Source: a virus. Taken from it: a DNA stretch of 34,403 nt. Location of the stretch: positions 1 through 34,403 of the IMG/VR virus record IMGVR_UViG_3300032050_000446. One strand, given 5' to 3'. Shown here one piece after another: positions 15,201-30,587 of the stretch. How positions within the stretch are numbered: the stretch's first letter is position 1; every line of letters begins with the position of its first letter. The notes under the pieces were generated by a model that worked only from the letters and a program-made list of their open reading frames with translations, was not told where the DNA came from and searched no databases. Both the position numbers and the translations under genes were made by a program.

Positions 15201-18200
15201 AATGCTTCCTATCAACAACCCGCAGCGTTTTAATCAACGGGTATCAAGTCACATTGGCTGCTGGTACTGCCGCTGCCGTCGCCAATCAAATCGTAAATTC
15301 ACGAGTACCTAATATTACTGCATCTGCAACTACAGACAATAAACTTATCATTCAAGTAGTTGATCCAAACTTAGCAGAAATCAATAATAAGTTGATGGTC
15401 ACTGCATTTGATACTGCTACTTTAGATGAATTGGGTATCAGTGTGTATTCACCTACTCAAGTAATTCCCTGCCCTCACAAAGAAGGCCCAACTGAGTTTG
15501 GTAAGACAATTAAGTTTAACCAGTTTGATTCAGTTGTAATTGCTGCCCCTGCAGGTCCTAACTTTGTAGCCACCACATTTGACTTCACCGATGACGAGAA
15601 TCTAGATAATGACACGGTGTTTGACAACAATGCAACCAGATTCCTTGAAGACTATCCTAACGCCGGCGCAGTCTACATGTTTGACCTGTTGACAAACAAT
15701 AACGGTAGCTTGTTGAATCCGGGTGCATTCGTATACGCTCAGCCTTCTAACAGCGCAACTTTAGATTTTGTCATCAATCCGTACTACGGCGAAGCTGTTG
15801 ACTTCTACGACAACACAGTTATTGTGGGTGCTCCTAACCAGATAATCAATCCATCGCAAGTAGGACAAGTAACAACATTTGTTAATGCAACTGGCGTGAG
15901 AAACTGGTCAGAGTTCCGTCAAAGCGCACCAATCGTAGATATTAACAAGATTCAAAACACCCAGTTGTTTAGTGCAAGCACAAATAATACCCTAATAAAT
16001 CTTGATTACATGGATCCGTTGCAAGACAAGCTATTGGGTGCGATAAGAGAAAACATTGATTATGTTTCACCGGAAGATCCTGCCAGATACAACGTTGATC
16101 CACTAAACATATCTGCTAATACATGGGGAAGTCAACAGGTAGGAAAAATCTGGTTCAATACATCAACCGTCAGATTCGTAAACTATCATCAGAATGATGT
16201 AGTTTATAATAGTGAGTATTGGGGAACAGTGTTCCCAGGCTCAGATATCTCAGTATGCACCTGGGTAGCCAGTAATGTTCTTCCCGGTCAATATCAGGGA
16301 CCTGGAACTCCTATTGACGCTACAAAGTATGCAGTCGGTAGTAGATTGAATGCGTCTAACATCGTTACCCCAGTTTATTATTTCTGGGTAAGAAATAGCG
16401 GTCTAATCGTTAAAGAGCGTGAGAAGACCCTATCGGACGCAGTTCTTGCTTCATACATTGCAAATCCACAAAGTTCAGGCATTGCATATATGGCACCTCT
16501 GTTGCCTAATACTTTTGCGCTGTACAACTCAGCAGAATATATCAACGATGCTGATAGTGTTTTCCATATCGGATTTGCTACTAACCAAGACACGGATGTT
16601 CCACATAACGAATTTAAGTTAATTCGCCAGAACTTCCCTGATGACTTCTTACCAGGACTGATGCCAGGTGAACGGCCATTCTCTCTATATGCAAGAATGC
16701 TTGATAGTTTGTCAGGAACTACTATTAGTGGGGAGATCGTACCTAATCCGTTCTTGCCATTAGCAGTACAGTCAGGCGTATTAGCAAGACCAAGACAAAG
16801 CTTCTTCTACAACAGATTTGAAGCACTAAAGAACTACTTGACATATGCTAACGCAGTTCTTGTACAGTATCCTATTACTGAAATAAAGCCGGACATTTCG
16901 TTCGCTTTCGTTTCAGATGAATTTTACAATACCGCAGATTATTGGGAATACATCAACTGGTGGGCACCTGGTTATAACAATAGCACAAGAGCTTTTGTGC
17001 AGGTACCGCTATACGCTGACTTAGCAGAGCTTGTAGTAAATCCAGACACTCTTGTTAAGGTGGATAACAACGGTACCGGCTCATTTGAAATCTATCGTTA
17101 TGACGGCGAAGGAGTTTGGACACGAGTTGGTCTAGAAAACGGAACAATCCAATTCAGTAGTGCATTGTGGGAGTATGCTAAGTTTGGCTTAGGATACGGA
17201 AACGATTTCTATGATACTATACCATACGATGACTATCCAAGTGAAGCAACAAGAAATATCATTCGCCTCCTAAACGAGCAAATCTACACTCAGGAGTTGT
17301 TGATTCACAGAAATAAGAGTCTAATTCTACTCTTAGAGTATATCCAAACGGAAACGATAGAGTCACAAAATTATTTGCCTTGGCTTTCTAAAACATCATT
17401 GATGGATGTATTCCACACCGTTCGTGAACTAAGACCGTTTGAAGTATTCAAGAGCGACAACGTTGAATTCTTAGAAGGTTACATTAACGAAGTTAAACCT
17501 TATCACGTAGTCCTTAAGGAATTCTTAGTCAAGTATGATGGTATGGAAGTCTATGACGGAAACTTCACTGACTTTGATGTTCCCGCAACATATAATAATA
17601 ATTTTGATCAGTACATAAGCCCGCAGCTTGTATTCACTGACCCTGATAATGAATATACGTATGATGAGAATTCACCAATCTGGTCTACTGCGCCATACAC
17701 TCAGTGGTATCAGAATTATGGTTTGTCATTGACTGGACAAGAAAACTATCTCATAACTACACTAAAATCATATATGGATTTGGGGTCTAACGTAATGCTT
17801 GTAGATAACGCTAGCGGATTCCCATCCAATGGCGTCATACAGATTGATGGCGAAATAATTTCTTATGCGTTTGTTGACAGAAACTTAAATCTGTTGGGAG
17901 GCTTGTCAAGAGGTCTTAACAACTCACAAGTGTCAGAACATATTCCTGACTCAGATATCTTCATTGATTTGCCTGCGGTGGTAGTGTTGGATGAAGGTTC
18001 CGGCTACACTCAAGTACCAAAAGTAATAGCACACGTTGATACTACATTGTATCCGGCACCTAGAAAAGAAGCAATACTACAAGCAGTGATGAGCGGCGGC
18101 AGAGTAAGTTCAGTTCAAGTTATTGATCCGGGCGCGGGCTATGTTGTTCTGCCTGAAATCAAAATTGACTCAGCATACACTATCTTGTTCTCCGACACAG

Positions 18201-21200
18201 ACATTAACGCAAGCCTAAACACAATTAATATCAATGCTCCTTTCCTTAGAACAGGTGAGATAGTTAAATTCAATAGTGGTACCGGTGGAGCAAAGCCAAC
18301 TAATCTTGTAGACGATTCTTGGTACTACGTTGGCGTTCTTGAATCACTGCCCTCAGTAATCATAGCTCTCTATACTAACTATAGTGATGCAGTAAAAGAT
18401 CAAAATAGAATTAATATTGCACCTGGTTTAGCTTCTGATGATATGTCGCTTTCTCCGGGCGCCAGAGCTTCAACTATCACAAGCTCAGCACCTACCAGAG
18501 AAAATAATATCACGCTACGTTTCGACAGAACTACCTATAATTCTCAAGTTATTGATTGGGAATCAGGAACATTCTATGGTGCATTCTTTGCTGGTACCTA
18601 CTATAACAGCGACAAGATATCAAGTTCTGCCATCACGCTAGAAAATACTGAGCCAGATATCAACACTATCTTAGCAAGTGCCCAGGGCGTAGCACTACAA
18701 ATTAGTGATGTTACTGATGAAGAGGAACTTGTTTGGTCTGCATTTACTCGTTATGTCAGCGAAACTTCAGCCATTGACAACTCAATTAGTTTGGTCCCGC
18801 AAGATGGAAATAACCCTGACTTGTCAGAATTAGAACCTAATGCTTCAGGAACCACAATAGGTTTCTATATCGGAATGCCTATTAAATTCATTGGTACTGT
18901 AATCGGTGGCCTATCAGAAGGTGTAACATACTATGTTTCTGAAATTATTGATGAAATCAAGTTCTGTGTATCAGATACTATATCAGGATCCACAAGGGTA
19001 CTTAATAACGGAACAGTAAACGCACCACTACTTGAGTGCTATACAGGAAATATCAACGAAACTGTTATAGTTTCAGTTGAATATCCGGGTATTATTGAAG
19101 CAACACAAACTCAAAGCGTTACCAATGCTATCACGGTACCACTATCACCGGTTGGCACAGGGGGAACAATTGGTTTCTATACTAATCTTCCTGTATTCTT
19201 TACTGGTAACGTGTTCGGCGGAATAATTGAAAACTTTAATTATTACGTGACCTCTGTAATTGATAATCAGACATTTACAATCAGTGAAACACAAAACCCA
19301 GTGACTACCACTGTCACTCAAACTAAGGCCACTGGAAACATTCTGGTTGTTGGATCCATTAATGGAATTTCTAGAAATGACCCAATCATCATTACTTCGT
19401 TGACCGGCGGATTAGCTCTTAGCGGAATAGTTGCAGGTAAAACTTACTACGTAAGTCAATTTATTAGTCCGACTGAAATTACTATTTCTGAAGTGGTCAA
19501 CGGTCCTGTGTTAGTTGTTTCTAATAGAGTCGGTACGGCTGTTCTCACTAACCAAAAGGATACAGTCAAGCTAACAAATGCAACCGGTTCAATGACAATG
19601 AACGTTTCTCTACCGGTAAGTCCAGGACAAGTTGACGGGCAGCTATTCACACTGTACCAAACTTCAGGGCAGTTTACCGATATTGCTCCTTCAGGTGCTA
19701 ACTATTCAGACCTAATTGACAGACAAATTAGAGCTACAATTGGAACAGTGAACAAGATTGCTATCTCTGAAAACGATGGCGGAACATTTAACTTCTATGT
19801 GAACATGCCAATTCAGGTACTACAAAATGTGGGCGGTCTAACTACCGGTACAACATATTATATCACTGAATATTCAGGAATGGTTGATCCGTTAAATAGT
19901 GAACTTACACTACCTAACATTCAAGTTGAAGTTACTAACTCATCAGATATCGGAAACGTATTGACTTGCACAGTTGATCTTCTCAGAGGGTTCGATGGCA
20001 CTGATTCACTTTACGAAAAAATGCCTATTACGTTCCAAGGCACTGGTTTAGGTGGAATCGTAATTGATCAAGAATACTATGTAAAAACTATAGTAAGTGC
20101 TACACAATTTACTGTTAGTGAAGTAGTTGATGGGCCTGTCAAAGTATTAACTCTCGCAAACGGCCTCATGGTTGGCACCGGCGACCCCTACATCAAGGTT
20201 TCAACGTCAAAGGGAGGTTCAGCGGTTTCACTGACAGACAACAACAGTGCTACTTCTTCATTTACACAGTTTATTACAGTAGACCCAGTGTTTGACCTTT
20301 CATATCTGTTAGGCGGATATAACGCTATTATCTCTACTCCGGGTGAAGGGTTTGCAATTAGCAACACTATCTTAATTCCAGGAACAGCGGTTGACGGAAC
20401 TTCACCGGCTAATGACATATTGTTGACAGTGAATACCATAGACGAAGATGGTGGCATCACATCAGTAATTCGCTCAGGAACTCCACCAAGCGTTGCAAAT
20501 CAGTACTACATGCAAGTCCGTTCAACAAACACACTTGCGGTGTATAAGAACAGCCTATTAACAATTCCAGCAACTCCTGCTGAATTTGATTATGTAGGTT
20601 ACACTACTGCAACTGTAACAGAAACCCAGGCATCAACTGATATTATTACCGTAAACAGCACAGCCGAATTTGCGGTTAATGATGCAGTAGTATTCACAGG
20701 TGATGTTACTGGCGGAATGAACTTAGGTCAAACTTATTACATTCTAGACAACGGAAACTTCACTGCCACAACACTACAGATCAGTGATACTCCCGGAGGA
20801 AGTGTAATTCCTCTAAGCACTGCAACGTCACAGAATTATTCAATGGCTAAACTAGGAAGTGTTGCGTTTCTTCCGGAGCCATTCTTCTTCAATCAAAGTA
20901 TTGTCAGGTACAACAACCGCGTATATGTTTGCGTAGTATCTAATAATGATGACGAGTTCATCTTTGGTAAGTGGGAACTTCTAGACAGCGGCGACCGTAG
21001 ATTGAACGCAATGGATAGAGTCATTGGTTACTATCAGCCAACAAGCAACATGCCTGGTGTTGATCTACAGCAACTATTTGAGGGTACTACATATCCCAAC
21101 CCAACCTATCAGGGCAACAACTTTGACCCGAACTTACAGTATGGTGTTGATACTATATTGACCCCGCTTCCATTCTATCCTAGCGAAGTCGATATCAGCG

Positions 21201-24200
21201 GCATTGTTTGGAACGGTGATAACTATTTGGCTAGTGCTAACTTGCCAGGATACAACGCTATCTTGACGAGTGAGGACGGCGAAACATGGACTATCAATCA
21301 GTTAACAAATAACAATATTAATACTACGAGCATTTCGCAGTTGAATGGGTTCTATTTCTTAACCTCAGCTAACCCAACTGTTCCGCTTCTCAGAAGTGTT
21401 AATGGTGTAGCATGGTCTGCGGTATCATATTTTGTACCATTTGGAACAACTGAACTGGAGTTACAAAATCTCGCAGCACTGAACATCCCTTCGCTGTCAC
21501 TAAATGATGTTGCATACTGCACGATCGGTGATGCATGGGTATCAGTAGGTAGAAACATTTTAAGAAGCGAAGACGGAATTGTTTGGAGAGAGTTGACTGA
21601 GTTCAACCCTTCACTTGAATATGAACTTAATGCGGTATCATCTATAACAGGTGCAAACTGCCAAGGTTTGGTAGCAGTAGGTAAAGGTAAACAACCAGAC
21701 TACTCAACCGGCGTAACACAACTTGTGCCGATTGGCTTGATTTTCTATAGCCAAAATAGCGTCAACTGGAATCAAATTCAACCCCTCACTGATAAAGGCC
21801 TCTATGGTGTGTCAAGTGACGGAACTACTGTGATTGCAGTGGGCGAACGCCAAGTAATCTACTATACTCAAAATGGTTTTGACTGGGTAGGACTTAATGA
21901 AGTAGGATGTGTGTTTGTTGATAGCATCAACAATTACCTCAACGTCACTAACACTGCTGGGTTTAATGATGGATCGCTAGGAACTCCAGTAAGATTCAAT
22001 CGTTCATTCTCTACTATAGCAGCAAATACCACTTACTATGTCAGGGAAATAATTTCATCTACTCAGGTAACACTATCTTCAACTCTTGATGGTAGCGTAC
22101 TTACCCTTTCAAGTGCCTCTGTTCCTGAAAATACAAGAATGTTTGTATACGATGCAAGTGACCCAATTCCAGCTACACTAAACGACATTTTGTATGCAAA
22201 CAGTCTTTGGATTACGGTAGGTGATGAAGGTACTATCAAGACCTCAACAGACGGTATCGTTTGGGAAACTCGCACCAGCAACACTACTAACAACTTGAAC
22301 AACGTTACATATAACGAAGATCAAGGCGTGTTCGTTGTAGTAGGAGAAAACAACACAATCCTAACAAGTGCTGATGGCATCAGTTGGGAAGAGACTTCAG
22401 TGTTTGATCCTATTGTACCAGTATATGATGTGAAGGGTGCAAACTTCCAATTCGGATATGCACCGGAAGAATTAGTAGCAGGCGTTGTAAGCGACAATCT
22501 CGCATTGATTGTAAACACCAGACCAGGATCTAACTGGCCTGTTGTTGAATACGGACACACTGGATTCAATGTCAACTCTATTGAAATAGCACCAACTTTT
22601 GGAGAACAGGTAGAATATAGCTTTGCGAACTTAGTAAATGTTCCGGTAACACTTAGAGTGCAGGTTATTAATGGCACCACTGAGTTGGGAACTACTCTAT
22701 CACCTGATGCTTATACTATTGATTGGATAAACAAGAAAATCATATTAGATCAGGCAATTAGTTTCTCTCCGAGACTTGATAAACTAAGAATTGATGTATA
22801 CGAAGCAGGCAATGGCGATCAGCTTGTGAAGGCAAGCACGGATACTTATCCTATCATTACTGATAGCGACTTTGGTTTCAGAGAAATCAATCTACCTTGT
22901 AACTACAGTGCTACTATCTTTGAGGGTGGTGGCGCTCTAAGACCCGGCACTGATAATGTGAACGTTAGAGTCTTTGAAACTGAATCTGTCACAAATCGTA
23001 TTTTCTGCGATGAGGTAGCAGACTTCATCATTAACAGTCCGATATCATTCCAAGGTGTTCCGTTCGGTGGCTTGCAAGAAGAAACTGTTTACTATGTCAA
23101 GACAATAAGCTTCGCAACCAATGCAATCACTGTGTCTACAGTTTTTGATTCATTGACCGGCATAGCTGGACCAACTACTGAGTTGACAGACGATACAGGC
23201 GAAATGTTTGCAAACATTCAGAATGGTGTAGCTGCTGTTTGGACAGATCCACTCGTAGAACACAATGGCGAGAAATTAGTGTTTGGTGGTATTGGTCTCG
23301 TTACTAGATCAAAATCTAGCAACAACGCACTGACCACTGGAACTACAAGCGGATTGATTGTTGGTACTCCTATCACCTTTGGTCAGGCTTCATTTGGCGT
23401 ATTAGTACCCTTCCAAAGATACTATATTCAATCAATCATTGACGGTAACGAATTTACTATTTCTGAAACACAGGGCGGGCCAGTTCTAGCTCAGGATGAT
23501 TTCGCAGGAACTACTACATTCGTGACTAATGATTACTCAATTGGACTTAGAAATGGTAATAAGGCAAAGTTAGTATTTGCAAACAATACCTTTACTAACG
23601 ATGTTGACTATATATCCTTCTCAATCTTTGGCGAAACACAGCCAGCGCAGTATGGTTATGCTGTTCCGGAAACTCAGTATTACGCAGGAAATGGTTCAAC
23701 CAGTCTATTCCAGTTAGCTAACTTTGTAGGCTTAGATAACCCACAAAATGCGATTGTGGAAGTGAACGGTGTTAGACAGACTATATCACAGTATACGATT
23801 GACGCTATCGCCAACACAATATTGTTTGATAGTCCTCCTCCCGCAAACTCAGTGGTTGCGGTAACTACGTACAACGATACATTAAGACAATACCTAACCA
23901 GTCAGTATGACATTACTGGTAACCCAGGTTCTTCGTTGCTTAACCTAACAGTTATAGAAACAGTAAACGAGCTAGGAACATATGACCAAGACGCTCCGGT
24001 AGTTCAAACATATGACCAAGATACTCCTGTTATTGTTCTCTATGATGAATTCTTGAACTATCTAACTTTGGGACCAGGCGATGACACCAGTGTATTGAAT
24101 GTTAACGATTCATTGCAGTTCAGCGCACCAACATTAGGCGGAATTGTTGCAGGACAAACCTATTATGTTCTTCAAATTCTTAACTCTACCGACTTCGTAA

Positions 24201-25942
24201 TTTCTGAAGAAGTAGGGGGAACTCCTTTTGTAGTGTCTGATGATACTGGGTCAATGTCACTGTTGGCAAACGGATTGACGGTTGCGCCTATCGCAAATAT
24301 CAGTAATAGTTTGACTCCGCCGATAGCTATTAGCAACGCAACAAGCACAACCGCAGGATCTCCTAATCAAATCACAGCAGATAGCACTACTGGATTTATC
24401 GTAAATCAACCAGTTCAGTTCTTTGGCACATCATTTGACGCCAACATTAGAACAGACGGTGTTGTATACTTTATTAGAAGTATTGTTAATAGCACTACGT
24501 TTACTATTAAAGACGCTGCCGGTACCCAAATTGTGACTGTTGGTGGTTCAGGCAATATGCAAGTTGTAGTGGGCGGACAGCCCAGTGTGCGTGTAACTAC
24601 CTCAATTGAGCATAAGTTTGTAGAAAATACGTTAATTAGAATTGACGGTACAACTGGTTCAGTTCAGCTTAATAATAACACATATTATGCTAAGATCATT
24701 GACCCACTCACATTTGATATCTATAATAGTCCATATGATTCTTCAATTACTGCGGTAAATGATCCCGTAACTACTATTGAAGCGTATATCAGTGGCGGCT
24801 ATACATGGCGTCAGGGTCTATTCTTCATCAGCACTACTACAGCCACTGCTACTACTGAAGCATCACCCGATGACGATTATATAACTGTAGCTTCTACTGA
24901 CGGTCTGGTTTCTGGAACTCCAGTATACTTCAGTGAAATTGAAACATCAAACACTGATATTAACGGAGATCCTACTCCGCTAATGGGAGGCTTAACACAG
25001 GGTACACTGTATTATGTGAAGGACATTGTTAACTCTACTAGATTCACTGTGTCTTCAGTGAGATATGGTCCTGCTGTTAGCTTAACCGACGATTCCGGAA
25101 GAATCAACGTAACTCAGTGGTCACAAGAAAATGTTGATAGAATGTATGTAACAATCAACGGCTATCGTGTTCCGTCATCTAAGCTCAAAGTCAATGACTT
25201 CAACGAAGTCAGCATTTTGTCAGAGATTGTCCCCGGTGATAGAGTCATTATCTCAAGTATGATACCAACTGCAACTCCTAATGAGGAAATATACATCAAT
25301 TTTGTTAACAATGTTGGGGACGCTGAAGTTTACAGAACCAGTCCAGAAATTACAACTTGGGTAACCGAAACTGTATATCCTTTAGCAACAGAAATCTTAG
25401 TCAACGATGTTACTAAGCTAACTCGCCAGATAGTGCAGGAAGTCACAACTCCAGCTCCAGCTATTGCTGACGGATTCTACTATATAGGATTAACCGCAGA
25501 CAAGAACTTGATTGCTAATGTTAGAATCTTCAACAAGACTACACTAAACTTCATACCACAAGAAGCAATCAGTGTTGCTCTTATTGATTTGTCTCCTAAT
25601 GTTAAGATTGCGCCCGGAGTCTACATTACGGAGGACGATGAGTTGACTATCACTACCCTAGAAGGTAACTTAGTCTATATCAACGGCGAACAGATTAGAT
25701 TCAATAAGGTAGACTTTGATACTAATGCGTTGCAAGAAATTAGTAGAGGCGTGAACGGTACTGGTACACAAACTATCATACCTGCTTACTCTCCTGCATA
25801 TGGACTGTTGTCGATAAATCAACTACCTAATGTGTTCTATGATCAGACTTGGAATTCCAACAAATATAACACCGTTGAAGGGGATCCGTTGCAGATTAGC
25901 GACACTATTCCTGCTCAATTCCTAATTGATCCGGCTAATTAA
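6296..25942 (+). CDS. Giant mosaic baseplate/tail protein in gp7 position (6548 aa)
   Basis: A single uninterrupted frame of 6548 codons begins 8 bases after gp6, where gp7 is expected in a gp25-gp6-gp7 wedge set; T4 gp7 has 1032 residues. A gp7-like role is inferred from position; I recognise no T4 gp7 motif. The N-terminus 'RIRTLNFLPEIFQTPTNSQF' and the backbone-like stretches at about 9,780-13,000 and 15,900-17,640 (including 'EGYINEVKPYHVVLKEF') are Trp/Tyr-rich, contain few repeats and look like the ancestral core. Added modules: a beta domain with 'GGTYRFEVNQTSQFWIQT' (~6,850-7,050); YYV repeat copy 1 (~7,300-7,560); an FG-GAP-like propeller (13,680-15,895); a dense YYV-repeat half (18,840-25,110); and an Asp-box propeller (21,187-22,412). 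No signal peptide or membrane segment is seen. The start has only a poor ribosome binding site, so translational coupling to gp6 is likely. It could instead be a fibre fused to a wedge protein. Confidence 0.93.
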   Translation: MARIRTLNFLPEIFQTPTNSQFLSATLDRLVSNPSSTRVQGYVGSKFGSGINALDYYVTEPTKTRADYQLEPSVVFTKAEEEIANDFITYPGIIDSLKQQGAITNNNDRLFNSQIYSWDSFTNLDKLVNYYEYYWLPIGAPAVTVAPSTVFINQDYVVTDFPNSYEISEVGSAIGTGTNPTISVIRGGTYRFEVNQTSQFWIQTEPGTSGFSPTQENLPTREVFGVDNNGTEVGIVTFNVPFKNAQDQFVFPGNNMVDVICNIPFDQVNGRNLYTINDPATGVIYPGLDNIDGVTGLEGLRILFYDTGVPDEQGFVSSYYDSTTYDVNDPSFTEPKTVTVGSTNASGNRLSMASGFTTDELIPNQTVTFSGVLLGGIVEGQVYFVKDIINSTDFTISEDLEGDTVTVFSQSGANMIVNINQGQFQNGFNTVVSENFYRIQYVGDPDNPIIRLLPDGTIPNNEKISPRFGDQYISRSFYRNNLGVISMIPIITAPLDVLYYQDGINPNKVGVIKINDSDIDNFINIETEILGRTTYTSPNGVQFTNGLKVQFDGNVFPNSYRSGEYYVEGVGTAIELIPVSELIVPEKFSRGDFIPYDTVGYDDTDYDIELFVPIDPDYITITRNSISKNAWSRSNRWFHIDVINATAQYNDNPNILTEYATLDNKAKRPIIEFYPNLKMFDAGTQGKRPVDFFDTRATDALSQVAGLNNYFPDVETYTGNTAVVASTPTVIVNVVSMELGKTYELVNVDDTIQDSWNELAGTLGVTYFPGDKIVCVKDGNDLLVPGTGTGRLIDDQTTVTVPSDDVTGVFQIGMYVGDVLNIIPTNAQIINLTDDGTTTTLTINYPFPQDIVGGTTSIVGTDTTVSNYSVFPGSRIIFSNDTDEGTKHKIYVVDIVVTTLGGSPQIVLIEAEDTNVEVDQQVVITRGFTEQGKTFYFDGIEWLQAQQKVTVNQAPLFDVFDDNGISLSDSTVYNSTSFTGTTLFSYGINPLTVDDPILGFPVRFTDVGNIGDISFDVTINSDTFNYVRGIESITQQVNTGYVHNYINRIEFARELGWVTAVENSVQYQEFNFRYNVATPTTQFVCDVAALPEVEFDSVGWPRVKVYNNNKYLEPTDYTVEIFDTATRITLNSAPDVDTVIQVLLLSDQVSQSGFYQIPDNLNSNPFNEDLTVADLGDIRNHYQDIFVNAPNTTGDIFGSNNYRDCGDLTPYGTKIIQNSASMVLPGVFLRKTKYDLLNALMFTSNEYVKFKQLLVDTVQNTQFTIRNTPAEILDEAIEQIAASKSEISSFYWSDMLPNRSPLAVNTYNFNSNTDVTRYPLSKVYNFESANYDSVLVYLNRTVNNNLVQRQLLRNVDYTISADSPTVTVTLDLVPGDQIIVKEYNQTYGSFVPYTPSKLGLYALYEPSVVLDSNYSTPTYFIKGHDGSYTKLYGTYIPQTDTLLDFRDQTLLEFEKRVYNNVKLSTEVPIKFYDVLPGFFRDSDYSYDEWLQMYSTNFLNWVGQNRIDYKTQFFNRNNEFTYNYTNSSNKLTGEQIQQGYWRGAYQYLYDTTTPNLTPWEMLGFANKPTWWEERYGPAPYTSDNLVLWGDLESGRVYSADGTSVIVPEVARPGLLDIIPVNSNGNLLSPLNSIVGTYNANTFQKDWKVGDDGPAELSYRRSSTYPFDVIKLFAMTKPAEFYNLAVDLDNYKYNAEFNQYLVNNRDHLIISDVEIYGDGIAKTSYINWIVDYEKQFGVDTTQEIKQALRNLDVRLAYRLAGYSDKTLLKFYVEKGSPNTANASLLIPDESYQVLLYDNQPFDKVVFSSVIIQKTVQGGFTVFGNSQSFAYFIIKAPVNSGRSELVTVLDKTVKLATDYSSKEVLVPYGTTFYSIQEVAQFLMSYNAYLTDKGMKFNEVQAGTEINWELMVQQFMYWTQMGWEDGSLITLNPAANDLVFDKEGSIVQPLTIQQQNFILNQDLYPIQINTLCVNRDGTYFKVHTLNEGDSMSFAQFNVSNFEHGIVFNNTTLFNDVIYNLVTGLRQNRITLRGTKTSEWNGTVDAWGFIINQDNVKEWSKDVKYPKGSIVLHKNKYYTALRLSEPSTVFNDLDWKLINYEDVQKGLLPNSATRSFESTLYYNCNEANLEQDADLLSFSLIGYRPRDYLALADLTDITQINVYKNMIKNKGTVNAVTAFDGVNLPQGGIEYEVYENWAIKSGDYGGLLSQNFVEFRVDQNLLTGNPSIVSLTNGVYTEGSQQEVPIYSLFNYGDTITDPNVLAVTTDPYNNLYPSAGYANFNDVKMSSFYYGGLPNGVNKDGIVVPIQNFYVRDYLWLASFKEKWGIFSWSPIGEVVEVAANLNNTATVTFSKPHNLKNLDPIAIVNFSTNVDGYYIVTQVVNLNQVIINLSISNIGSESITGSGVGMFIYSQRVAQPGDINTLPLLEAEFSKNTVWVDENTDGGWAVYRKGINYARQGELSTTTSSTFGNSVAFTESAGYLVADSANGVVYRYYYKNSNYDLAETITNDTSFGEKIVHNDNTFVISQPTTDPTVYIYAWNDTALANELLLTQTIAAPMGVTDWGSELAISGDGNWVYVSDTLNTQVYVYRKNNQEFSAGYFVPTQTYVITELGTTDFTAIGAIENSVGITFEATGIGSGTGTAINATYELVNIIENPDIVTAGSFIIGEEYKIASLGNTDFTLVGAASNNVGVVFTATGPGTGTGTASAQSNGFGTAISTDFDSDCLFIGAPNKDYSVSVTNWGEVYFYQRSVQNFESTAVSTLTQPQFFALGWTPDTATKAVTATSDSTDRITLANVSGISVNDAITFVGTGLAGTDIIAYKTYYVAGISGSAITIKESRSTNAIVQLSTVSSISNATAHVQSELLLVNVNGRMVQDNNYAVVGSSLVYTGSLNAGDIVEVSGNDFYNVQTFNAASNSAINIQFGYDLDVTRQASELLIGSPYEIDSENREGLVYRFTNGGARFGIVVGENQCFLSTTRSVLINGYQVTLAAGTAAAVANQIVNSRVPNITASATTDNKLIIQVVDPNLAEINNKLMVTAFDTATLDELGISVYSPTQVIPCPHKEGPTEFGKTIKFNQFDSVVIAAPAGPNFVATTFDFTDDENLDNDTVFDNNATRFLEDYPNAGAVYMFDLLTNNNGSLLNPGAFVYAQPSNSATLDFVINPYYGEAVDFYDNTVIVGAPNQIINPSQVGQVTTFVNATGVRNWSEFRQSAPIVDINKIQNTQLFSASTNNTLINLDYMDPLQDKLLGAIRENIDYVSPEDPARYNVDPLNISANTWGSQQVGKIWFNTSTVRFVNYHQNDVVYNSEYWGTVFPGSDISVCTWVASNVLPGQYQGPGTPIDATKYAVGSRLNASNIVTPVYYFWVRNSGLIVKEREKTLSDAVLASYIANPQSSGIAYMAPLLPNTFALYNSAEYINDADSVFHIGFATNQDTDVPHNEFKLIRQNFPDDFLPGLMPGERPFSLYARMLDSLSGTTISGEIVPNPFLPLAVQSGVLARPRQSFFYNRFEALKNYLTYANAVLVQYPITEIKPDISFAFVSDEFYNTADYWEYINWWAPGYNNSTRAFVQVPLYADLAELVVNPDTLVKVDNNGTGSFEIYRYDGEGVWTRVGLENGTIQFSSALWEYAKFGLGYGNDFYDTIPYDDYPSEATRNIIRLLNEQIYTQELLIHRNKSLILLLEYIQTETIESQNYLPWLSKTSLMDVFHTVRELRPFEVFKSDNVEFLEGYINEVKPYHVVLKEFLVKYDGMEVYDGNFTDFDVPATYNNNFDQYISPQLVFTDPDNEYTYDENSPIWSTAPYTQWYQNYGLSLTGQENYLITTLKSYMDLGSNVMLVDNASGFPSNGVIQIDGEIISYAFVDRNLNLLGGLSRGLNNSQVSEHIPDSDIFIDLPAVVVLDEGSGYTQVPKVIAHVDTTLYPAPRKEAILQAVMSGGRVSSVQVIDPGAGYVVLPEIKIDSAYTILFSDTDINASLNTININAPFLRTGEIVKFNSGTGGAKPTNLVDDSWYYVGVLESLPSVIIALYTNYSDAVKDQNRINIAPGLASDDMSLSPGARASTITSSAPTRENNITLRFDRTTYNSQVIDWESGTFYGAFFAGTYYNSDKISSSAITLENTEPDINTILASAQGVALQISDVTDEEELVWSAFTRYVSETSAIDNSISLVPQDGNNPDLSELEPNASGTTIGFYIGMPIKFIGTVIGGLSEGVTYYVSEIIDEIKFCVSDTISGSTRVLNNGTVNAPLLECYTGNINETVIVSVEYPGIIEATQTQSVTNAITVPLSPVGTGGTIGFYTNLPVFFTGNVFGGIIENFNYYVTSVIDNQTFTISETQNPVTTTVTQTKATGNILVVGSINGISRNDPIIITSLTGGLALSGIVAGKTYYVSQFISPTEITISEVVNGPVLVVSNRVGTAVLTNQKDTVKLTNATGSMTMNVSLPVSPGQVDGQLFTLYQTSGQFTDIAPSGANYSDLIDRQIRATIGTVNKIAISENDGGTFNFYVNMPIQVLQNVGGLTTGTTYYITEYSGMVDPLNSELTLPNIQVEVTNSSDIGNVLTCTVDLLRGFDGTDSLYEKMPITFQGTGLGGIVIDQEYYVKTIVSATQFTVSEVVDGPVKVLTLANGLMVGTGDPYIKVSTSKGGSAVSLTDNNSATSSFTQFITVDPVFDLSYLLGGYNAIISTPGEGFAISNTILIPGTAVDGTSPANDILLTVNTIDEDGGITSVIRSGTPPSVANQYYMQVRSTNTLAVYKNSLLTIPATPAEFDYVGYTTATVTETQASTDIITVNSTAEFAVNDAVVFTGDVTGGMNLGQTYYILDNGNFTATTLQISDTPGGSVIPLSTATSQNYSMAKLGSVAFLPEPFFFNQSIVRYNNRVYVCVVSNNDDEFIFGKWELLDSGDRRLNAMDRVIGYYQPTSNMPGVDLQQLFEGTTYPNPTYQGNNFDPNLQYGVDTILTPLPFYPSEVDISGIVWNGDNYLASANLPGYNAILTSEDGETWTINQLTNNNINTTSISQLNGFYFLTSANPTVPLLRSVNGVAWSAVSYFVPFGTTELELQNLAALNIPSLSLNDVAYCTIGDAWVSVGRNILRSEDGIVWRELTEFNPSLEYELNAVSSITGANCQGLVAVGKGKQPDYSTGVTQLVPIGLIFYSQNSVNWNQIQPLTDKGLYGVSSDGTTVIAVGERQVIYYTQNGFDWVGLNEVGCVFVDSINNYLNVTNTAGFNDGSLGTPVRFNRSFSTIAANTTYYVREIISSTQVTLSSTLDGSVLTLSSASVPENTRMFVYDASDPIPATLNDILYANSLWITVGDEGTIKTSTDGIVWETRTSNTTNNLNNVTYNEDQGVFVVVGENNTILTSADGISWEETSVFDPIVPVYDVKGANFQFGYAPEELVAGVVSDNLALIVNTRPGSNWPVVEYGHTGFNVNSIEIAPTFGEQVEYSFANLVNVPVTLRVQVINGTTELGTTLSPDAYTIDWINKKIILDQAISFSPRLDKLRIDVYEAGNGDQLVKASTDTYPIITDSDFGFREINLPCNYSATIFEGGGALRPGTDNVNVRVFETESVTNRIFCDEVADFIINSPISFQGVPFGGLQEETVYYVKTISFATNAITVSTVFDSLTGIAGPTTELTDDTGEMFANIQNGVAAVWTDPLVEHNGEKLVFGGIGLVTRSKSSNNALTTGTTSGLIVGTPITFGQASFGVLVPFQRYYIQSIIDGNEFTISETQGGPVLAQDDFAGTTTFVTNDYSIGLRNGNKAKLVFANNTFTNDVDYISFSIFGETQPAQYGYAVPETQYYAGNGSTSLFQLANFVGLDNPQNAIVEVNGVRQTISQYTIDAIANTILFDSPPPANSVVAVTTYNDTLRQYLTSQYDITGNPGSSLLNLTVIETVNELGTYDQDAPVVQTYDQDTPVIVLYDEFLNYLTLGPGDDTSVLNVNDSLQFSAPTLGGIVAGQTYYVLQILNSTDFVISEEVGGTPFVVSDDTGSMSLLANGLTVAPIANISNSLTPPIAISNATSTTAGSPNQITADSTTGFIVNQPVQFFGTSFDANIRTDGVVYFIRSIVNSTTFTIKDAAGTQIVTVGGSGNMQVVVGGQPSVRVTTSIEHKFVENTLIRIDGTTGSVQLNNNTYYAKIIDPLTFDIYNSPYDSSITAVNDPVTTIEAYISGGYTWRQGLFFISTTTATATTEASPDDDYITVASTDGLVSGTPVYFSEIETSNTDINGDPTPLMGGLTQGTLYYVKDIVNSTRFTVSSVRYGPAVSLTDDSGRINVTQWSQENVDRMYVTINGYRVPSSKLKVNDFNEVSILSEIVPGDRVIISSMIPTATPNEEIYINFVNNVGDAEVYRTSPEITTWVTETVYPLATEILVNDVTKLTRQIVQEVTTPAPAIADGFYYIGLTADKNLIANVRIFNKTTLNFIPQEAISVALIDLSPNVKIAPGVYITEDDELTITTLEGNLVYINGEQIRFNKVDFDTNALQEISRGVNGTGTQTIIPAYSPAYGLLSINQLPNVFYDQTWNSNKYNTVEGDPLQISDTIPAQFLIDPAN
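13680..15895 (+). other. FG-GAP-like seven-blade beta-propeller with inserted domains (residues ~2462-3200 of the giant protein)
   Basis: Seven units follow the pattern F/W/Y-G-x-x-h ... hh-h-[AS]-[PD] ... G-x-V-Y-x-[YF]. They start near 13,684 (FGNSVAF...GVVYRYY), 13,817 (FGEKIVH...TVYIYAW), 13,971 (WGSELAI...QVYVYRK), 14,423 (FGTAIST...FIGAPN...GEVYFYQR), 15,055 (FGYDLDV...LLIGSP...GLVYRF), 15,497 (FGKTIKF...VIAAPA...GAVYMFD) and 15,786 (YGEAVDF...VIVGAP...GQVTTF). This is the FG-GAP/integrin-alpha type of repeat. Extra material sits between blades 3/4 (two LGxTDFT repeats), 4/5 (a YYV repeat plus an NG-Y module) and 5/6 (a segment with 'VLINGYQVTLAAGTAAAVA'). A binding or spacer role is inferred; calcium-binding Asp loops are not clear. 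Confidence 0.7.
14102..14405 (+). repeat. Two LGxTDFTxxGA repeats inserted in the FG-GAP propeller
   Basis: Two copies about 64 residues apart read YVITELGTTDFTAIGA...FEATGIGSGTGTA and YKIASLGNTDFTLVGA...FTATGPGTGTGTA. The motif Y-x-I-x-x-LG-x-TDFT-x-x-GA-x-x-N-x-VG-x-x-F-x-ATG-x-GTGTA is shared. They lie exactly between propeller blades 3 and 4. This short module is common in aquatic phage virion proteins to my knowledge; function unknown. Confidence 0.85.
18840..25110 (+). repeat. YYV beta-repeat array in the C-terminal part of the giant protein
   Basis: A repeat of about 60-90 residues recurs with the pattern F-x-G-x-x-x-GG-[IL]-x-x-G-x-x-YYV-x-x-I-x-x-x-x-F-T-[IV]-S-[ED] ... x-[GS]-x-M. 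The YYV/YYI/YFV centres lie near 18,930, 19,243, 19,450, 19,860, 20,080, 20,742, 22,038, 23,093, 23,425, 24,165, 24,471 and 25,015. Two more lie outside this interval near 7,445 and 14,760. Degenerate relatives lie near 18,322 (SWYYVGVLES) and 24,680 (NTYYAKIIDP). Copies differ in sequence, so the expansion is old. The region looks like a string of small beta domains. Confidence 0.85.
21187..22412 (+). other. Asp-box (BNR-like) beta-propeller region, interrupted by a YYV repeat (residues ~4964-5372)
   Basis: Seven Asp-box-like motifs S-x-[DN]-[GS]-x-x-W are spaced along the region: TSEDGETW (~21,267), RSVNGVAW (~21,392), RSEDGIVW (~21,563), YSQNSVNW (~21,746), YTQNGFDW (~21,863), TSTDGIVW (~22,240) and TSADGISW (~22,363). 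Each is preceded by a beta segment such as 'VAVGERQVIYY' or 'FVVVGENNTIL'. Between motifs 5 and 6 a complete YYV repeat (~21,900-22,130) is inserted. Asp boxes mark sialidase-like propellers. I see no sialidase catalytic arginine set, so carbohydrate binding or a purely structural role is more likely than an enzyme. Confidence 0.75.
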
Positions 25943-26737: not shown

Positions 26738-28978
26738 GTGTCGTATAGTATTTTCAGAACCAATGGTTCACTTTTAACAACTATTCCGGACGGTACGGTT
26801 AATACTACCAGCACTCCTTTAAGCTTGCCAGGTAGAAACTATGCAAGTTACGGGCAAATCGTAGACACCAATTTTGTCCATCAACTAGAAAACTTTGCTA
26901 ATTCTACTCCACCGCCTGATGCACTGCGCGGCCAGCTATGGTACAACACCACTGCAAATGTATTGTATATTTGCCCGTCAGACGGCGAGTCAAATGTTGC
27001 ATTATGGGTTCCTATTCTAACACCAAATAATATTAGCAATATCTCAGTTGTAAATCTTACTGCATCGGCTAATATATCAGCAAACAACGCTACTATTACC
27101 AACAATGCAAACGCTAATGCTATCTCTACCAACTACTTAACAGTCAACGTTCAAGCAAACATTTCTAATGCAAATGTTACTGGAAATGCAGTAGTTGCAA
27201 ACTTACGAACAGTAAACGTAACAGCTGGTTCAAATACCATCACCGGTACTTTAACTGGTGCCTGGACAGTAAACGGAGACGCAACAGTTAGCAGCGTTGC
27301 AAACACTGCTTTGTATGTTACCGGAGGTAATCTGGTTGTTAGCACCGGTATAAAGACTAACAACTATCTGTATGCTAACGGTGTCGCCGTATCATTTGAC
27401 GGTACATATACTAACAGTAACGTAGCAGCTTACTTACCTACTTATGAAGGAAACGTAGGCAGCCCAGGTGGCAACGCAGTATTTAATGGCAGAACACTTA
27501 ATGCTGGATCAAACGTAACAACAGGCACAATCAACGGTAACTGGACACTTTCCTCAGGTTCACAAATCAACGGTCTATCAGGTATTGCAGGTGCTAATGT
27601 TACAGGAACAGTTGCTAACGCTACATATGCAGTAAGCGCAGGCTCAGCAGGAAGTGCTACAACTGCCGCTACAGTAACAACAGCAGCACAACCAAATATC
27701 ACTTCAGTCGGTACATTAACCGGCCTTAACGTATCAGGTAACGCAAACTTTACCGGTCAGCTAATAAGTTTGGGATCAAACGGTAATGTAAGCATCACTG
27801 GCGGCGCAGCCGGTCAAGTATTGTCAACAAACGGTTCAGGCGGACTAAGCTGGGTATCGGCAGCGGCTGCTCAAACTGCAATTACTGTTACTGCTAACGC
27901 TCAGCCAAACATCACAAGTACAGGCACACTCACTGGCCTTAACGTTTCTGGAAACGCATCATTTACTGGTGCTAACGTAAGTTTAGGAGATGCTGCTAAT
28001 CTAAAAATTAATGGCGGTTCGTCAGGACAGCTTCTAACGTCACTTGGTTCTGGAACCGTAGCTTGGCAAACAGCCGAGACTGTCATCCCATCCGGAACCA
28101 GAATGTTATTTGCTCAAACTAATGCTCCTACAGGATGGACAAAGCAAACTTCAAGCGACAACGCTGCATTAAGAGTCGTATCAGGCACTGCCGGAACAGG
28201 CGGCTCTGTCAACTTTACGGCTGCGTTCACTTCACAATCAGTGTCTGGTACAGTGGGAAGCACTACTGCCGGAGGGACGGTCGGCAATAGCACTATCAGT
28301 GCAACTGTAGGTGACACTGCTGTTTCAGGCACCGTGGGTTCTACCGTAGCAGAAGGTTCAGTAGGGTCTACTTCTATAACTGCAAGCATCGGTGAAACTG
28401 CGGTATCAGGTTCAATAACATCGGCTACTGCTGGCGGCACAGTAGGGACCAATACTATTAGTGCAAGCATCGGAAACACTGCGGTATCAGGAACAATAGA
28501 CGAAACTACGGTTACTGGAACTACCAATAGCAATTTCACCGGAATTACCCTAAACATAATTAACTCAGAGCAAATTGAGAACGAGCAAAATCAGTTTTGG
28601 GTTTATCGTTATGCAATAAATGATCCAGGACACAGCCACACGTTTTCTGCTGCCCCACACAATCACACGTTCTCATCACCGTCCCACTCTCACGATTTCA
28701 CTCAGTCGGCTCACGGTCACACATTTGCTGGATCGCCTCACAGCCACAGCTTCACTTCGCCAAATCACACTCACGGATTTACTCAGACAGCGCACAATCA
28801 CACATTTGCTGGATCCGCACACACCCACTCATTCTCGTCACCAAACCATACTCACTCCTTTAGTCAGTCAGCGCACACTCATACCTTCACCGGTGATTCC
28901 CATAATCACACATTTTCGGGAACGGACATTAACTTGGCTGTTAAATACGTAGACGTTATTATTGCACAGAAAGATTAA
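26738..28978 (+). CDS. Tail-fibre protein with collar-like motif and His-rich metal-needle tip (746 aa)
   Basis: The start is GTG, preceded by a strong AAGGGAG at 26723-26729 that overlaps the previous stop; no nearby ATG competes. Residues 1-95 form an attachment-like domain ('LTTIPDGTVNTTSTPLSLPG', 'TNFVHQLENFA', 'RGQLWYNTT') shared with the second fibre. The middle is Asn/Thr/Ala-rich, shares 'NSNVAAYLPTYEGN' and 'AVFNGRTLNAG' with that fibre, and carries two 71-residue 'QPNITSxGTLTGLNVSGN' repeats. Residues 451-471 ('FAQTNAPTGWTKQ') resemble a phage tail-collar domain. Then come a 27-residue-period array (502-596), a 35-residue loop, and eleven HxH motifs exactly nine residues apart (632-728), ending 'NLAVKYVDVIIAQKD'. 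HxH-coordinated iron in the gp37 tip of T4 is the closest known parallel. Likely a receptor-binding fibre; trimerisation and metal binding are inferred. Confidence 0.93.
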   Translation: MSYSIFRTNGSLLTTIPDGTVNTTSTPLSLPGRNYASYGQIVDTNFVHQLENFANSTPPPDALRGQLWYNTTANVLYICPSDGESNVALWVPILTPNNISNISVVNLTASANISANNATITNNANANAISTNYLTVNVQANISNANVTGNAVVANLRTVNVTAGSNTITGTLTGAWTVNGDATVSSVANTALYVTGGNLVVSTGIKTNNYLYANGVAVSFDGTYTNSNVAAYLPTYEGNVGSPGGNAVFNGRTLNAGSNVTTGTINGNWTLSSGSQINGLSGIAGANVTGTVANATYAVSAGSAGSATTAATVTTAAQPNITSVGTLTGLNVSGNANFTGQLISLGSNGNVSITGGAAGQVLSTNGSGGLSWVSAAAAQTAITVTANAQPNITSTGTLTGLNVSGNASFTGANVSLGDAANLKINGGSSGQLLTSLGSGTVAWQTAETVIPSGTRMLFAQTNAPTGWTKQTSSDNAALRVVSGTAGTGGSVNFTAAFTSQSVSGTVGSTTAGGTVGNSTISATVGDTAVSGTVGSTVAEGSVGSTSITASIGETAVSGSITSATAGGTVGTNTISASIGNTAVSGTIDETTVTGTTNSNFTGITLNIINSEQIENEQNQFWVYRYAINDPGHSHTFSAAPHNHTFSSPSHSHDFTQSAHGHTFAGSPHSHSFTSPNHTHGFTQTAHNHTFAGSAHTHSFSSPNHTHSFSQSAHTHTFTGDSHNHTFSGTDINLAVKYVDVIIAQKD
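27692..28077 (+). repeat. Two 71-residue (213-nt) repeats in the tail-fibre shaft
   Basis: The units start with PNITSVGTLTGLNVSGNANF and PNITSTGTLTGLNVSGNASF, 213 bases apart. Both continue through GQ[LV]LST/LTS...G to a W (LSWVSA, VAWQTA). They probably form repeating beta shaft segments of a trimeric fibre. Confidence 0.85.
28241..28525 (+). repeat. 27-residue tandem repeat (3.5 copies) with 9-residue sub-period
   Basis: Three full copies of 27 residues begin VSGTVGSTTAGG, VSGTVGSTVAEG and VSGSITSATAGG; a half copy follows (VSGTIDETTVTG). Each splits into three 9-mers of similar form, for example VSGTVGSTT / AGGTVGNST / ISATVGDTA. The block is about 95 residues long, close to the 97 residues of the HxH array that follows. 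Confidence 0.9.
28631..28921 (+). repeat. Eleven HxH motifs at an exact 9-residue period
   Basis: His-x-His occurs at residues 632, 641, 650, 659, 668, 677, 686, 695, 704, 713 and 722 with no register slip: HSH, HNH, HSH, HGH, HSH, HTH, HNH, HTH, HTH, HTH, HNH. Most units continue T/S-F-x-x. A 27-residue super-period is also visible (HTFAGSx / HSFxSPN / HTHxFxQxA). In a trimer, each HxH layer could supply six imidazoles to one metal ion. Confidence 0.95.
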
Positions 28979-28986
28979 GGTATTGT

Positions 28987-29319
28987 ATGAAGTTAGAACC
29001 CGGAAAATTTTGCCCACTGATTAAGAAAGACTGTGTAGGACTACAATGTTCATGGTTTACATTAGTTAGGGGCACGCATCCGCAGACGGGACAAGAAGTT
29101 GATGAATGGGGCTGTGCAGTAACATGGTTGCCGGTCTTGATGATTGAAAATAGTCAGCAGCAGCGACAAACAGGTGCCGCAGTTGAAAGTTTCAGAAACG
29201 AAGTAGTTAAGTCGGCTGAGAAAAGTCAGCATTTGATAGCAGCAGACCTTCAACATCGTATAGAGGAATCTAGAAGAATACAGACGCTACCTTATAGCGA
29301 TACAGCAAATAATACATGA
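28987..29319 (+). CDS. Conserved-looking phage protein with four cysteines (110 aa)
   Basis: The ATG has AAGG at 28977-28980, overlapping the stop of the first fibre gene. The first half contains Cys9, Cys16, Cys21 and Cys43 in the arrangement C-x6-C-x4-C-x21-C, with the tryptophan-containing contexts 'LQCSWFTLV' and 'DEWGCAVTWLP'. The four cysteines could hold one zinc ion or an iron-sulfur centre; there is no CxxC pair, so a classical zinc ribbon is not supported. The second half is a charged, Gln/Glu-rich helix ('QTGAAVESFRNEVVKSAEKS'). It sits between the two paralogous fibre genes, so a role in fibre assembly, folding or attachment is reasonable but unproven. Its stop overlaps the candidate late promoter of the next gene. 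Confidence 0.88.
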   Translation: MKLEPGKFCPLIKKDCVGLQCSWFTLVRGTHPQTGQEVDEWGCAVTWLPVLMIENSQQQRQTGAAVESFRNEVVKSAEKSQHLIAADLQHRIEESRRIQTLPYSDTANNT

Positions 29320-29348: not shown

Positions 29349-30587
29349 ATGGCATATACAATAGTTAAAAGCGATGGTACAGTACTTACCACCATTCCAG
29401 ATGGTACGATAGATACTACCAGTACCTCTCTTGGATTACCAGGAAGAAGCTTTTCCGGTTATGGACAAGCTCAAGACACAAACTTTGTTCACTTAACAGA
29501 AAATTTTGCTTCTTCTACTCCTCCTCCTAATCCTATTAGAGGTCAGCTTTGGTACAACACAACTACTAACACGATGCTTGTGTGTCCAGCAGACGGAGAA
29601 GCAAACGCAGCAGCTTGGTTAGCACTAACTTCAACATCAAGTGGTTCTACTACTACATTCGGTAACATTTCAGTAAGCGGGTCAATCACAACTTCTGAAT
29701 TGACAGTAGACAATGAAATTTCAGCCGGCTCAATATCAACCGACTCATTGACTGTTACTAATGACGCAAACATTGCTAATGCTACTCTATCGGGAACTAC
29801 CACAATTGCAAGCACTCAAACAGCAATTATTACAACAGGCGCAGCCGCTACAAACGGTAGCTTGACAGGAACTTGGACAGTATCCGGTAATGGTGTAGCT
29901 AATAGTGTTAACGGAACTGCTCTTTGGGTTACAGACGGTAACCTTGTAATTTCAGGCGCAGGTAGTATCGGTATACGAACCGATAACTATATGTACGCAA
30001 ACGGAGTATCCATTCCACTAGGCGGTACATATGGTAACAGTAACGTAGCAGCATACTTACCAACATATGCAGCAAACATCGGCCCCGTAGGCGGCGCAGC
30101 AGTGTTTAATGGTAGAACTTTATCTACTGGTGCAAATACAACTACTGGTAACATTACAGGTAACTGGTCATTAACTGCTGGCTCACGCCTCAACGCTACT
30201 TACGCTGACCTTGCAGAACGTTTCGCAGCAGATGAAGTGTATGAACCAGGTACTGTAGTAGAATTGGGCGGCGAAAAAGAAATCACAATTGCAAAAGATG
30301 AACTGTCAGAGAAGATATTCGGTGTTGTTTCAAACACTGCTGCCTACTTGATGAACGCTGGTGCCGGTGACGATGATACTCACCCTGCAATTGCGCTTGC
30401 CGGACGAGCTTCAGTTAAAGTTGTCGGCTCTATTAAAAAGGGTGATAGACTTGTAAGCGCCGGAAATGGAGTAGCAAGAGCAGCCTCTGAAGCTGAAGCA
30501 ACTGCGTTCAACACTATTGGTAGATCATTAATAAATAAAGATACAGAAGACGCCGGCATTATTGAAGCCGTTGTTATGATAAGATAA
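29349..30587 (+). CDS. Second tail-fibre protein, paralogue with a different C-terminal domain (412 aa)
   Basis: Residues 1-95 are clearly related to those of the first fibre ('LTTIPDGTIDTTSTSLGLPG', 'DTNFVHLTENFASSTPPP', 'IRGQLWYNTT'). The shaft shares 'NSNVAAYLPTYAAN', 'AVFNGRTLSTGAN' and the 'NxTGNWSL' ending. The C-terminal domain (285-412) is different: it opens 'YADLAERFAADEVYEPGTVV', continues 'KIFGVVSNTAAYLMN', 'IALAGRASVKVVGSIKKGD', and ends 'GIIEAVVMIR'. This domain recurs at the ends of phage fibre and spike proteins and resembles the Peptidase_G2-type intramolecular-chaperone domain, which can self-cleave; I cannot show the catalytic residues here. GGAGA gives a good ribosome binding site. 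It probably makes a second kind of fibre or an accessory fibre sharing the first one's attachment site. Confidence 0.92.
   Translation: MAYTIVKSDGTVLTTIPDGTIDTTSTSLGLPGRSFSGYGQAQDTNFVHLTENFASSTPPPNPIRGQLWYNTTTNTMLVCPADGEANAAAWLALTSTSSGSTTTFGNISVSGSITTSELTVDNEISAGSISTDSLTVTNDANIANATLSGTTTIASTQTAIITTGAAATNGSLTGTWTVSGNGVANSVNGTALWVTDGNLVISGAGSIGIRTDNYMYANGVSIPLGGTYGNSNVAAYLPTYAANIGPVGGAAVFNGRTLSTGANTTTGNITGNWSLTAGSRLNATYADLAERFAADEVYEPGTVVELGGEKEITIAKDELSEKIFGVVSNTAAYLMNAGAGDDDTHPAIALAGRASVKVVGSIKKGDRLVSAGNGVARAASEAEATAFNTIGRSLINKDTEDAGIIEAVVMIR

Follow-up and report, generated by a model that had tools for sequence, protein, structure and literature searches.

A viral tail fibre gene with eleven HxH motifs at an exact nine-residue period, read as a probable metal-stapled hairpin needle on the T4 gp37 plan

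Tail fibre needles stapled by HxH motifs (histidine, any residue, histidine) are known from a few structures. In the text available from PMC6957217, the needle of T4 gp37 (PDB 2XGF) is described as an insertion into a collar-like domain, with two stem segments of 50 + 50 residues (882–931 and 960–1009), a tip between them (932–959), seven coordinated irons along its length and residue G921 packed on F970. The HxH motifs of T4 gp37 are found at residues 883, 915, 929, 966, 980, 989 and 998, and the last three are at period 9. In the R-pyocin fibre, HxH motifs from three chains form an octahedral six-His iron site for which the authors suggest a role in folding and stiffness (excerpts of PMC6116203), and the 180-Å arm of gp34 of Anabaena phage A-1(L) (PDB 8KEC) is described as gp37-like (excerpts of PMC10966104). 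Further HxH fibres are reported in the accessible part of PMC11990801. The gene described here lies in a viral DNA record of 34,403 bases (IMG/VR record IMGVR_UViG_3300032050_000446, called the window below, at its full length). This tail fibre gene (26738–28978, + strand; GTG start, TAA stop, 746 amino acids) carries eleven HxH motifs at its 3′ end, and its product very probably provides a trimeric tail fibre with a receptor-binding end that follows the gp37 needle plan, as a metal-stapled, two-leg hairpin.

The motifs begin at residues 632, 641, 650, 659, 668, 677, 686, 695, 704, 713 and 722, the first at nucleotide 28631, and all ten intervals are 9 residues. The protein contains 23 histidines, 22 of which are within the motifs; the remaining one is H48. 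When residues 620–746 were shuffled 20,000 times with their composition preserved, the longest period-9 run was three motifs (41 shuffles). An earlier note made on this DNA had pointed out the eleven motifs and their exact period, and had mentioned the line of seven irons of T4 gp37; both observations were borne out, the latter by the portion of PMC6957217 cited above.

The array is one part of a two-leg insert lying between the halves of a collar domain, all on the + strand. The N-terminal collar half (residues 446–500, 28073–28237; APTGW ... ALRVVSG ... FTSQ) was delimited from the alignment of relatives and a profile match, and the C-terminal half (residues 731–746, 28928–28975; terminal sequence LAVKYVDVIIAQKD) from its conservation in relatives. 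The outgoing leg (residues 501–599, 28238–28534) consists of eleven 9-residue units of the type xxSGTVGxT and was identified by autocorrelation, by conservation in L002 (a 118-kb contig) and by the equal-leg rule described below. It is followed by the tip loop (residues about 600–631, 28535–28630), which was placed from its position between the legs, from its variability in relatives, where both its length and its sequence change, and from the precedent of the T4 tip. The return leg (residues 632–730, 28631–28927) is the HxH array itself, with eleven HxHx(F)xxxx units.

In the structure that we propose, a long beta hairpin would be inserted into the collar domain. The polypeptide would first run outward along the fibre axis in the eleven Gly/Val units, turn at the tip loop and come back through the eleven HxHxF units; a trimer would then have three strands going out and three coming back, bundled into one thin needle. 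The levels, eleven in number and spaced by about nine residues, would each contain the HxH pairs of all three chains, with six imidazoles facing the axis and coordinating a single divalent metal octahedrally, iron being the likeliest. Four residues past the first His, the Phe would pack on an outgoing-leg Gly, in the manner of F970 and G921 in T4. The long, thin needle would be stapled by these metals, and the tip loop would be presented to the host surface, where, by analogy with T4, it is likely to be the receptor-contact region. The earlier note had seen the array as a fibre tip made of eleven layers. The array is instead the return strand of the stem, with the tip probably in the loop at about 600–631, and the sites are expected to be lined up along the axis, one about every nine residues, and not stacked transversely.

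The window shares with T4 gp37 the collar insert, the equal legs with a tip between them, period-9 HxH motifs and the HxHTF unit (966–970 in T4). It differs in that all eleven HxH motifs are in the return leg, in that its legs are about twice as long (about 99 residues) and in that both legs are at period 9 with a 27-residue super-period. A-1(L) gp34 has five HxH motifs at exact period 9 and a Gly/Ile leg of about equal length by eye; it differs from the window in having the HxH leg first and five sites. The R-pyocin fibre shaft has a single HxH site. According to the excerpts of PMC11705849, the tail fibre of Alteromonas phage R22Y is a predicted trimer with HxH iron sites, but its six motifs, four of which start 22 residues apart, are in an N-terminal segment. 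The gp23 of Burkholderia phage E094, from another phage group, carries seven HxH in a gp37-like C-terminus (excerpts of PMC8174754). Tail proteins with HTHxVxIP units (L079, L038, L132 and others) also have a period-9 HxH leg, adjoined in L079, L038 and L081 by a Gly-rich repeat leg; they differ in a Gly leg period of about 10, in their flanking domains and in having up to 16 motifs.

Both legs of the window contain a longer repeat. In the HxH leg, identity was 0.59 at lag 27 and 0.45 at lag 9, and TRF found at the DNA level a repeat of 81 bp with 2.8 copies and 73% match. The second 9-residue array, upstream at 501–599, has the 27-residue super-period too (lag-27 identity 0.28 versus 0.22 at lag 9 over residues 440–631). 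Across 28238–28927, position 7 of the units follows the order G-G-A in the outgoing leg and S-Q-G in the return leg, and this order is kept at 77% identity. The simplest reading of the super-period would be that a three-unit module was duplicated in both legs.

The histidines are conserved beyond the rest of the array. The C-terminal 307 residues are identical (100%) in a 106-kb contig of metagenome 3300031857, L002 encodes a 77%-identical version with eleven HxH motifs, and L131, whose gene is cut at the 5′ end, has a run of eleven plus one more HxH upstream. Between the window and L002, all 22 array histidines are kept, versus 52 of the 77 other array positions (Fisher p 0.0008). By position in the return unit, the two His (1 and 3) are kept in 22/22 cases, the Phe at position 5 in 10/11 and position 7 in 10/11, whereas positions 2 and 4 are kept in only 3/11 and 7/11. 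This alternation fits a strand with one buried face. In the outgoing leg, numbered from residue 498, positions 7 (Gly/Ala) and 8 are kept in 11/11 units.

The same conservation bears on a needle of identical hairpin shape in which the HxH sites are mostly empty or partly filled, the His stacks being structural or acting as a pH- or metal-responsive zip. Metal content is unreadable from sequence, and the metal solved in gp12 was zinc after reconstitution (excerpts of PMC6116203), which leaves the identity of the metal uncertain even when a structure is available. Yet 22 of 22 histidines are conserved, the solved HxH fibres carry metal as far as the consulted parts of their descriptions go, and replacing H929 or H931 of T4 gp37 by alanine abolished plaques (PMC6957217, in the text available). 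We regard mostly empty or partly filled sites as unlikely.

Leg lengths were compared in collar-fibre relatives. The query was L299, a short-needle relative found beside a relative of the 110-amino-acid gene that lies downstream of the fibre gene. Among the 529 collar-fibre relatives found, 80 were used and, with L250, L001 and L002, made 83 loci; 18 were dropped because landmarks were missing, 13 were duplicates and 52 were used, that is 50 when the window and L002 are left aside. The outgoing leg was measured between the collar end and the TLxxxQIPxHxH landmark; for the return leg, the measured stretch ran from the first HxH past the tip to the C-terminal collar strand. The statistics for equal legs, for unit co-variation and for the HxH-first slopes below ignore kinship among the sequences.

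Across the relatives the collar is constant and the needle variable, and needles down to 9 + 9 residues retain both flanking collar halves around the insert. In the 50 distinct fibres, which are from aquatic phages, the return legs have 14 distinct lengths from 9 to 40 residues (12, 16, 17, 24, 25, 31 and 40 among them). The two legs are exactly equal in 36 fibres and agree within one residue in 49/50, against a maximum of 23/50 in 10,000 permutations with random re-pairing of the legs. When one example was kept per distinct length pair, 18/19 fitted (permuted maximum 8). The slope of outgoing versus return leg was 0.93 ± 0.04; exact equality depends on landmark placement, but this near-one slope does not. 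As a control, longer legs were not accompanied by longer tips (slope −0.35 ± 0.16). The 18 loci without landmarks were re-read by eye and yielded seven distinct readable fibres, whose legs match within one residue; L353 gave a wrong open reading frame and nothing was readable from L307, L351, L352, L354, L364 and L379. In the window and L002, which have eleven units in each leg, the return leg of 99 residues faces an outgoing leg of 94 residues by landmark or 99 by units. Since many lengths are not multiples of nine, the legs appear to be paired residue by residue and not by counting turns, and this near-exact match makes the design readable and testable from sequence. The longer metal-stapled needle of the earlier note stands for its architecture (gp37 plan, equal legs) and its T4-like period-9 spacing; the trimer, the inward-facing His and the bound metal are predicted. 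No description of the length series or of the equal-leg rule was found in the accessible portions of the open-licence literature.

The units of the two legs also co-vary. In the 15 of 50 tails with return legs of 17–18 residues and recognisable landmarks, the type of the base-side outgoing unit tracks the base-side HxH in 15/15 fibres: nine combine a base-side HxH with an NxT-type outgoing unit, six lack both, and mixed cases are absent, as antiparallel pairing would predict. L336, L349, L359, L361, L375 and L377 have a base-side return unit lacking HxH (e.g. GSGTFSGNA), and the opposite outgoing unit differs too; if the hairpin reading is right, such units would be natural metal-less levels.

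The leg lengths decide against an arrangement in which the repeats form a transverse, intertwined triple beta-helix or beta-prism, as in T4 gp5 and phage spikes, with each unit being one face of a turn and the metals lying in adjacent layers. This arrangement was first considered because 3 × 9 = 27 is seen in both legs: the exact 9 period and the 27-residue super-period fit a triangular cross-section, and single HxH iron sites are known in central spikes. The matched leg lengths that are not multiples of 9 (12, 17, 24, 25, 31 and 40) are disallowed by a fixed turn, and the fixed number of residues per turn that characterises gp5/gpV-type spikes was not found in the relatives. Moreover, the insert begins and ends at one and the same collar and, in T4, the same kind of unit sits in an equal-legged stem. 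The transverse helix was rejected on the leg-length data and we regard it as very unlikely.

Little credence is given to histidines exposed for host contact, by surface metal binding or as a decoy for siderophore receptors (Trojan or Ferrojan horse), a hypothesis published for marine phages (excerpts of PMC11705849). Such contact needs accessible iron, whereas six His would surround the ion at the expected site. The histidines show the alternation with freely varying residues that is expected of a buried face, and the receptor patches of T4 are located on its tip, in the residues that separate the two legs (PMC6957217, available text).

A second group of fibres, with the HxH leg first, shows a similar trend. 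From 230 arrays, 13 duplicates, 63 simple arrays, 9 open-ended arrays and 116 arrays without the collar motif were dropped, which left 29 (24 with the HxH leg first and 5 with the HxH leg second). For the five HxH-leg-second arrays, the slope of the collar-to-array distance was 6.8 ± 0.7. For the 19 of 24 HxH-first arrays that are uninterrupted, the array-to-C-terminus distance grows by 10.9 ± 0.9 residues per HxH (r 0.94), and the control, the collar-to-array distance, stays flat (0.6 ± 1.9, n = 18). L078 is included in the 19 and was omitted from the control.

The frequency of such arrays was estimated by scanning 2.9 million viral contigs for HxH at period 9. Among the matches listed, 119 open reading frames had a run of at least 5 HxH, some of them simple repeats; 85 remained once simple-composition, short and repeated entries had been discarded. 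Among them are HTHxVxIP-unit tail proteins, fibres like that of T4 and HxH-leg-first collar fibres. The scans for 5 and for 8 motifs both gave long lists of matches; period-9 arrays of 5 or more HxH are common and not a rare design, and the window is less unusual than the earlier note had supposed. The listing for at least 11 HxH was complete and contained 28 stretches. The composition filter lets some out-of-frame simple repeats pass (e.g. L198, 19 motifs), so that these longest arrays were judged by eye, needle-like ones having a varied unit position 2 and a hydrophobic position 5. Twelve of the 28 were judged needle-like; three of these are the window's own family, and L038 and L200 are near-copies of each other. 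The longest needle-like array has 16 HxH (L079), which places eleven in the far tail of the distribution but makes it no record. L212, whose gene is cut at the 5′ end, has a needle-like array of 14 HxH at period 9.

The other 16 of the 28 stretches were judged not needle-like (simple repeats or hits outside an open frame), and these, with the 81-bp TRF repeat, are what a random DNA-level tandem repeat of no selected meaning would have in its favour; but such a repeat has a negligible chance of being the explanation, because the frame is that of the 746-amino-acid gene, DNA identity between the window and L002 across the array is 225/297 with no His lost, and three phages share the number of motifs and their frame.

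Structural comparison gave one positive result: a profile of 44 relatives with the collar, from which the window was excluded, matched two tail fibres of known structure, 9QGO (E 4e-8) and 9NXK (E 1.3e-5); the relatives' collar probably has the gp12/gp37 fold. VIA-align of the model of the short relative L302 (three entries listed of five chains aligned) gave Z 2.4–2.6 for 6OV6, 9NXK and 2XGF (2XGF 2.4); these are entries of the sort one would expect, but the result was not counted as evidence.

Several results weigh against the hairpin needle. The window fragment alone matched no solved structure at E < 0.01 (best 6V8I, 0.012, and 8KEC, 0.025). Profile comparison with T4 gp37-like sequences was not significant and aligned the wrong stretch, hhalign giving probabilities of 14 and 61 with misplaced 17-column alignments; the claim is consequently one of a shared working plan and not of proven common descent. 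The AF2 monomer model of window residues 446–746, made with one relative, was meaningless (mean pLDDT 38.4), that of L302 with 43 others was weak (61.4), and Foldseek with the L302 model returned nothing significant (9NXK then 6OV6, best E 0.41). Among the leg data, L310 is an exception to equal legs (18 versus 35), the tip-side end of the window's outgoing leg is poorly defined, hence its two lengths, and no measured fibre has 5 to 10 return-leg HxH, which leaves a gap in the series. Across the 85 filtered proteins, the correlation between a crude Gly-repeat count and the number of HxH was only moderate (rho 0.44). When the 23 usable HxH-first rows were all taken (a distance filter had excluded L078), no slope was seen (1.6 ± 2.2), probably owing to under-counting in interrupted arrays; the clear slope emerged only once the five fibres with additional HxH away from the main run had been set aside.

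The measured relatives carry 1 to 4 HxH in the return leg, and the window is an outlier at 11 + 11 units. On one kind of collar there is thus a natural series of 1, 2, 3, 4 and 11 return-leg HxH, represented in this order by L330, L347, L302, L327 and the window. In the relatives, a further HxH within the tip-side QIPSHTH may provide one site more. We tentatively extend the hairpin reading, with rather less than even confidence, to a needle in which all eleven levels hold an ion, giving eleven octahedral iron sites in line, and whose length is set by paired steps and provides an evolvable reach. In each step, mostly nine residues and one metal site would be gained or lost in both legs together. 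If this is true, one collar bears needles with 1 to 4 sites and with as many as 11, needle length is an evolvable reach of the tip, and metal per trimer is predicted to rise by one per natural unit. From 99 residues and the rise of an extended strand, the window's needle is estimated at roughly 25–33 nm. The series bears on whether the metal is structural, on how long a needle can be and on whether phages tune the reach of their fibres in this way.

The remainder of the fibre gene was analysed by profile searches. The 746-amino-acid protein matched no Pfam family at E ≤ 1. In PHROGs, residues 2–74 (26741–26959, + strand) matched phrog_14394, a virion structural protein (E 7e-11), and residues 674–725 matched phrog_4311 (E 1.6e-4). 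The N-terminal domain is probably a baseplate anchor. Large phages PA5oct, RaK2, 121Q and Atu_ph07 are also matched by residues 1–78 or less of the fibre. Residues 1–278 (26738–27571, + strand) are common to a second fibre (29349–30587, + strand; 412 amino acids, common part 1–282) with 149 of 282 alignment columns identical (53%). The C-terminal domain of the second fibre is Peptidase_G2 or intramolecular-chaperone-like (E 2.7e-7). Judged by this alignment, the two fibres are a paralogous pair whose heads differ.

The gene directly after the needle fibre gene (28987–29319, + strand) encodes the Cys-rich 110-amino-acid protein, of which 571 relatives were found in viral contigs. Its product was considered as a metal-loading factor, but in the best 80 of the 571 relatives an HxH period-9 run of at least 3 was present in the fetched flank of only 5, three of which are the window's family, and no link is claimed. 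In the baseplate region, an open reading frame of 6548 amino acids (6296–25942, + strand) was judged unusually large for a phage protein; neither half matched a Pfam family at E ≤ 0.01. Open reading frames in other frames overlap the repeats at 28620–28952 (+ strand) and 28114–28557 (− strand), and these seem to result from the codon bias and not to be genes.

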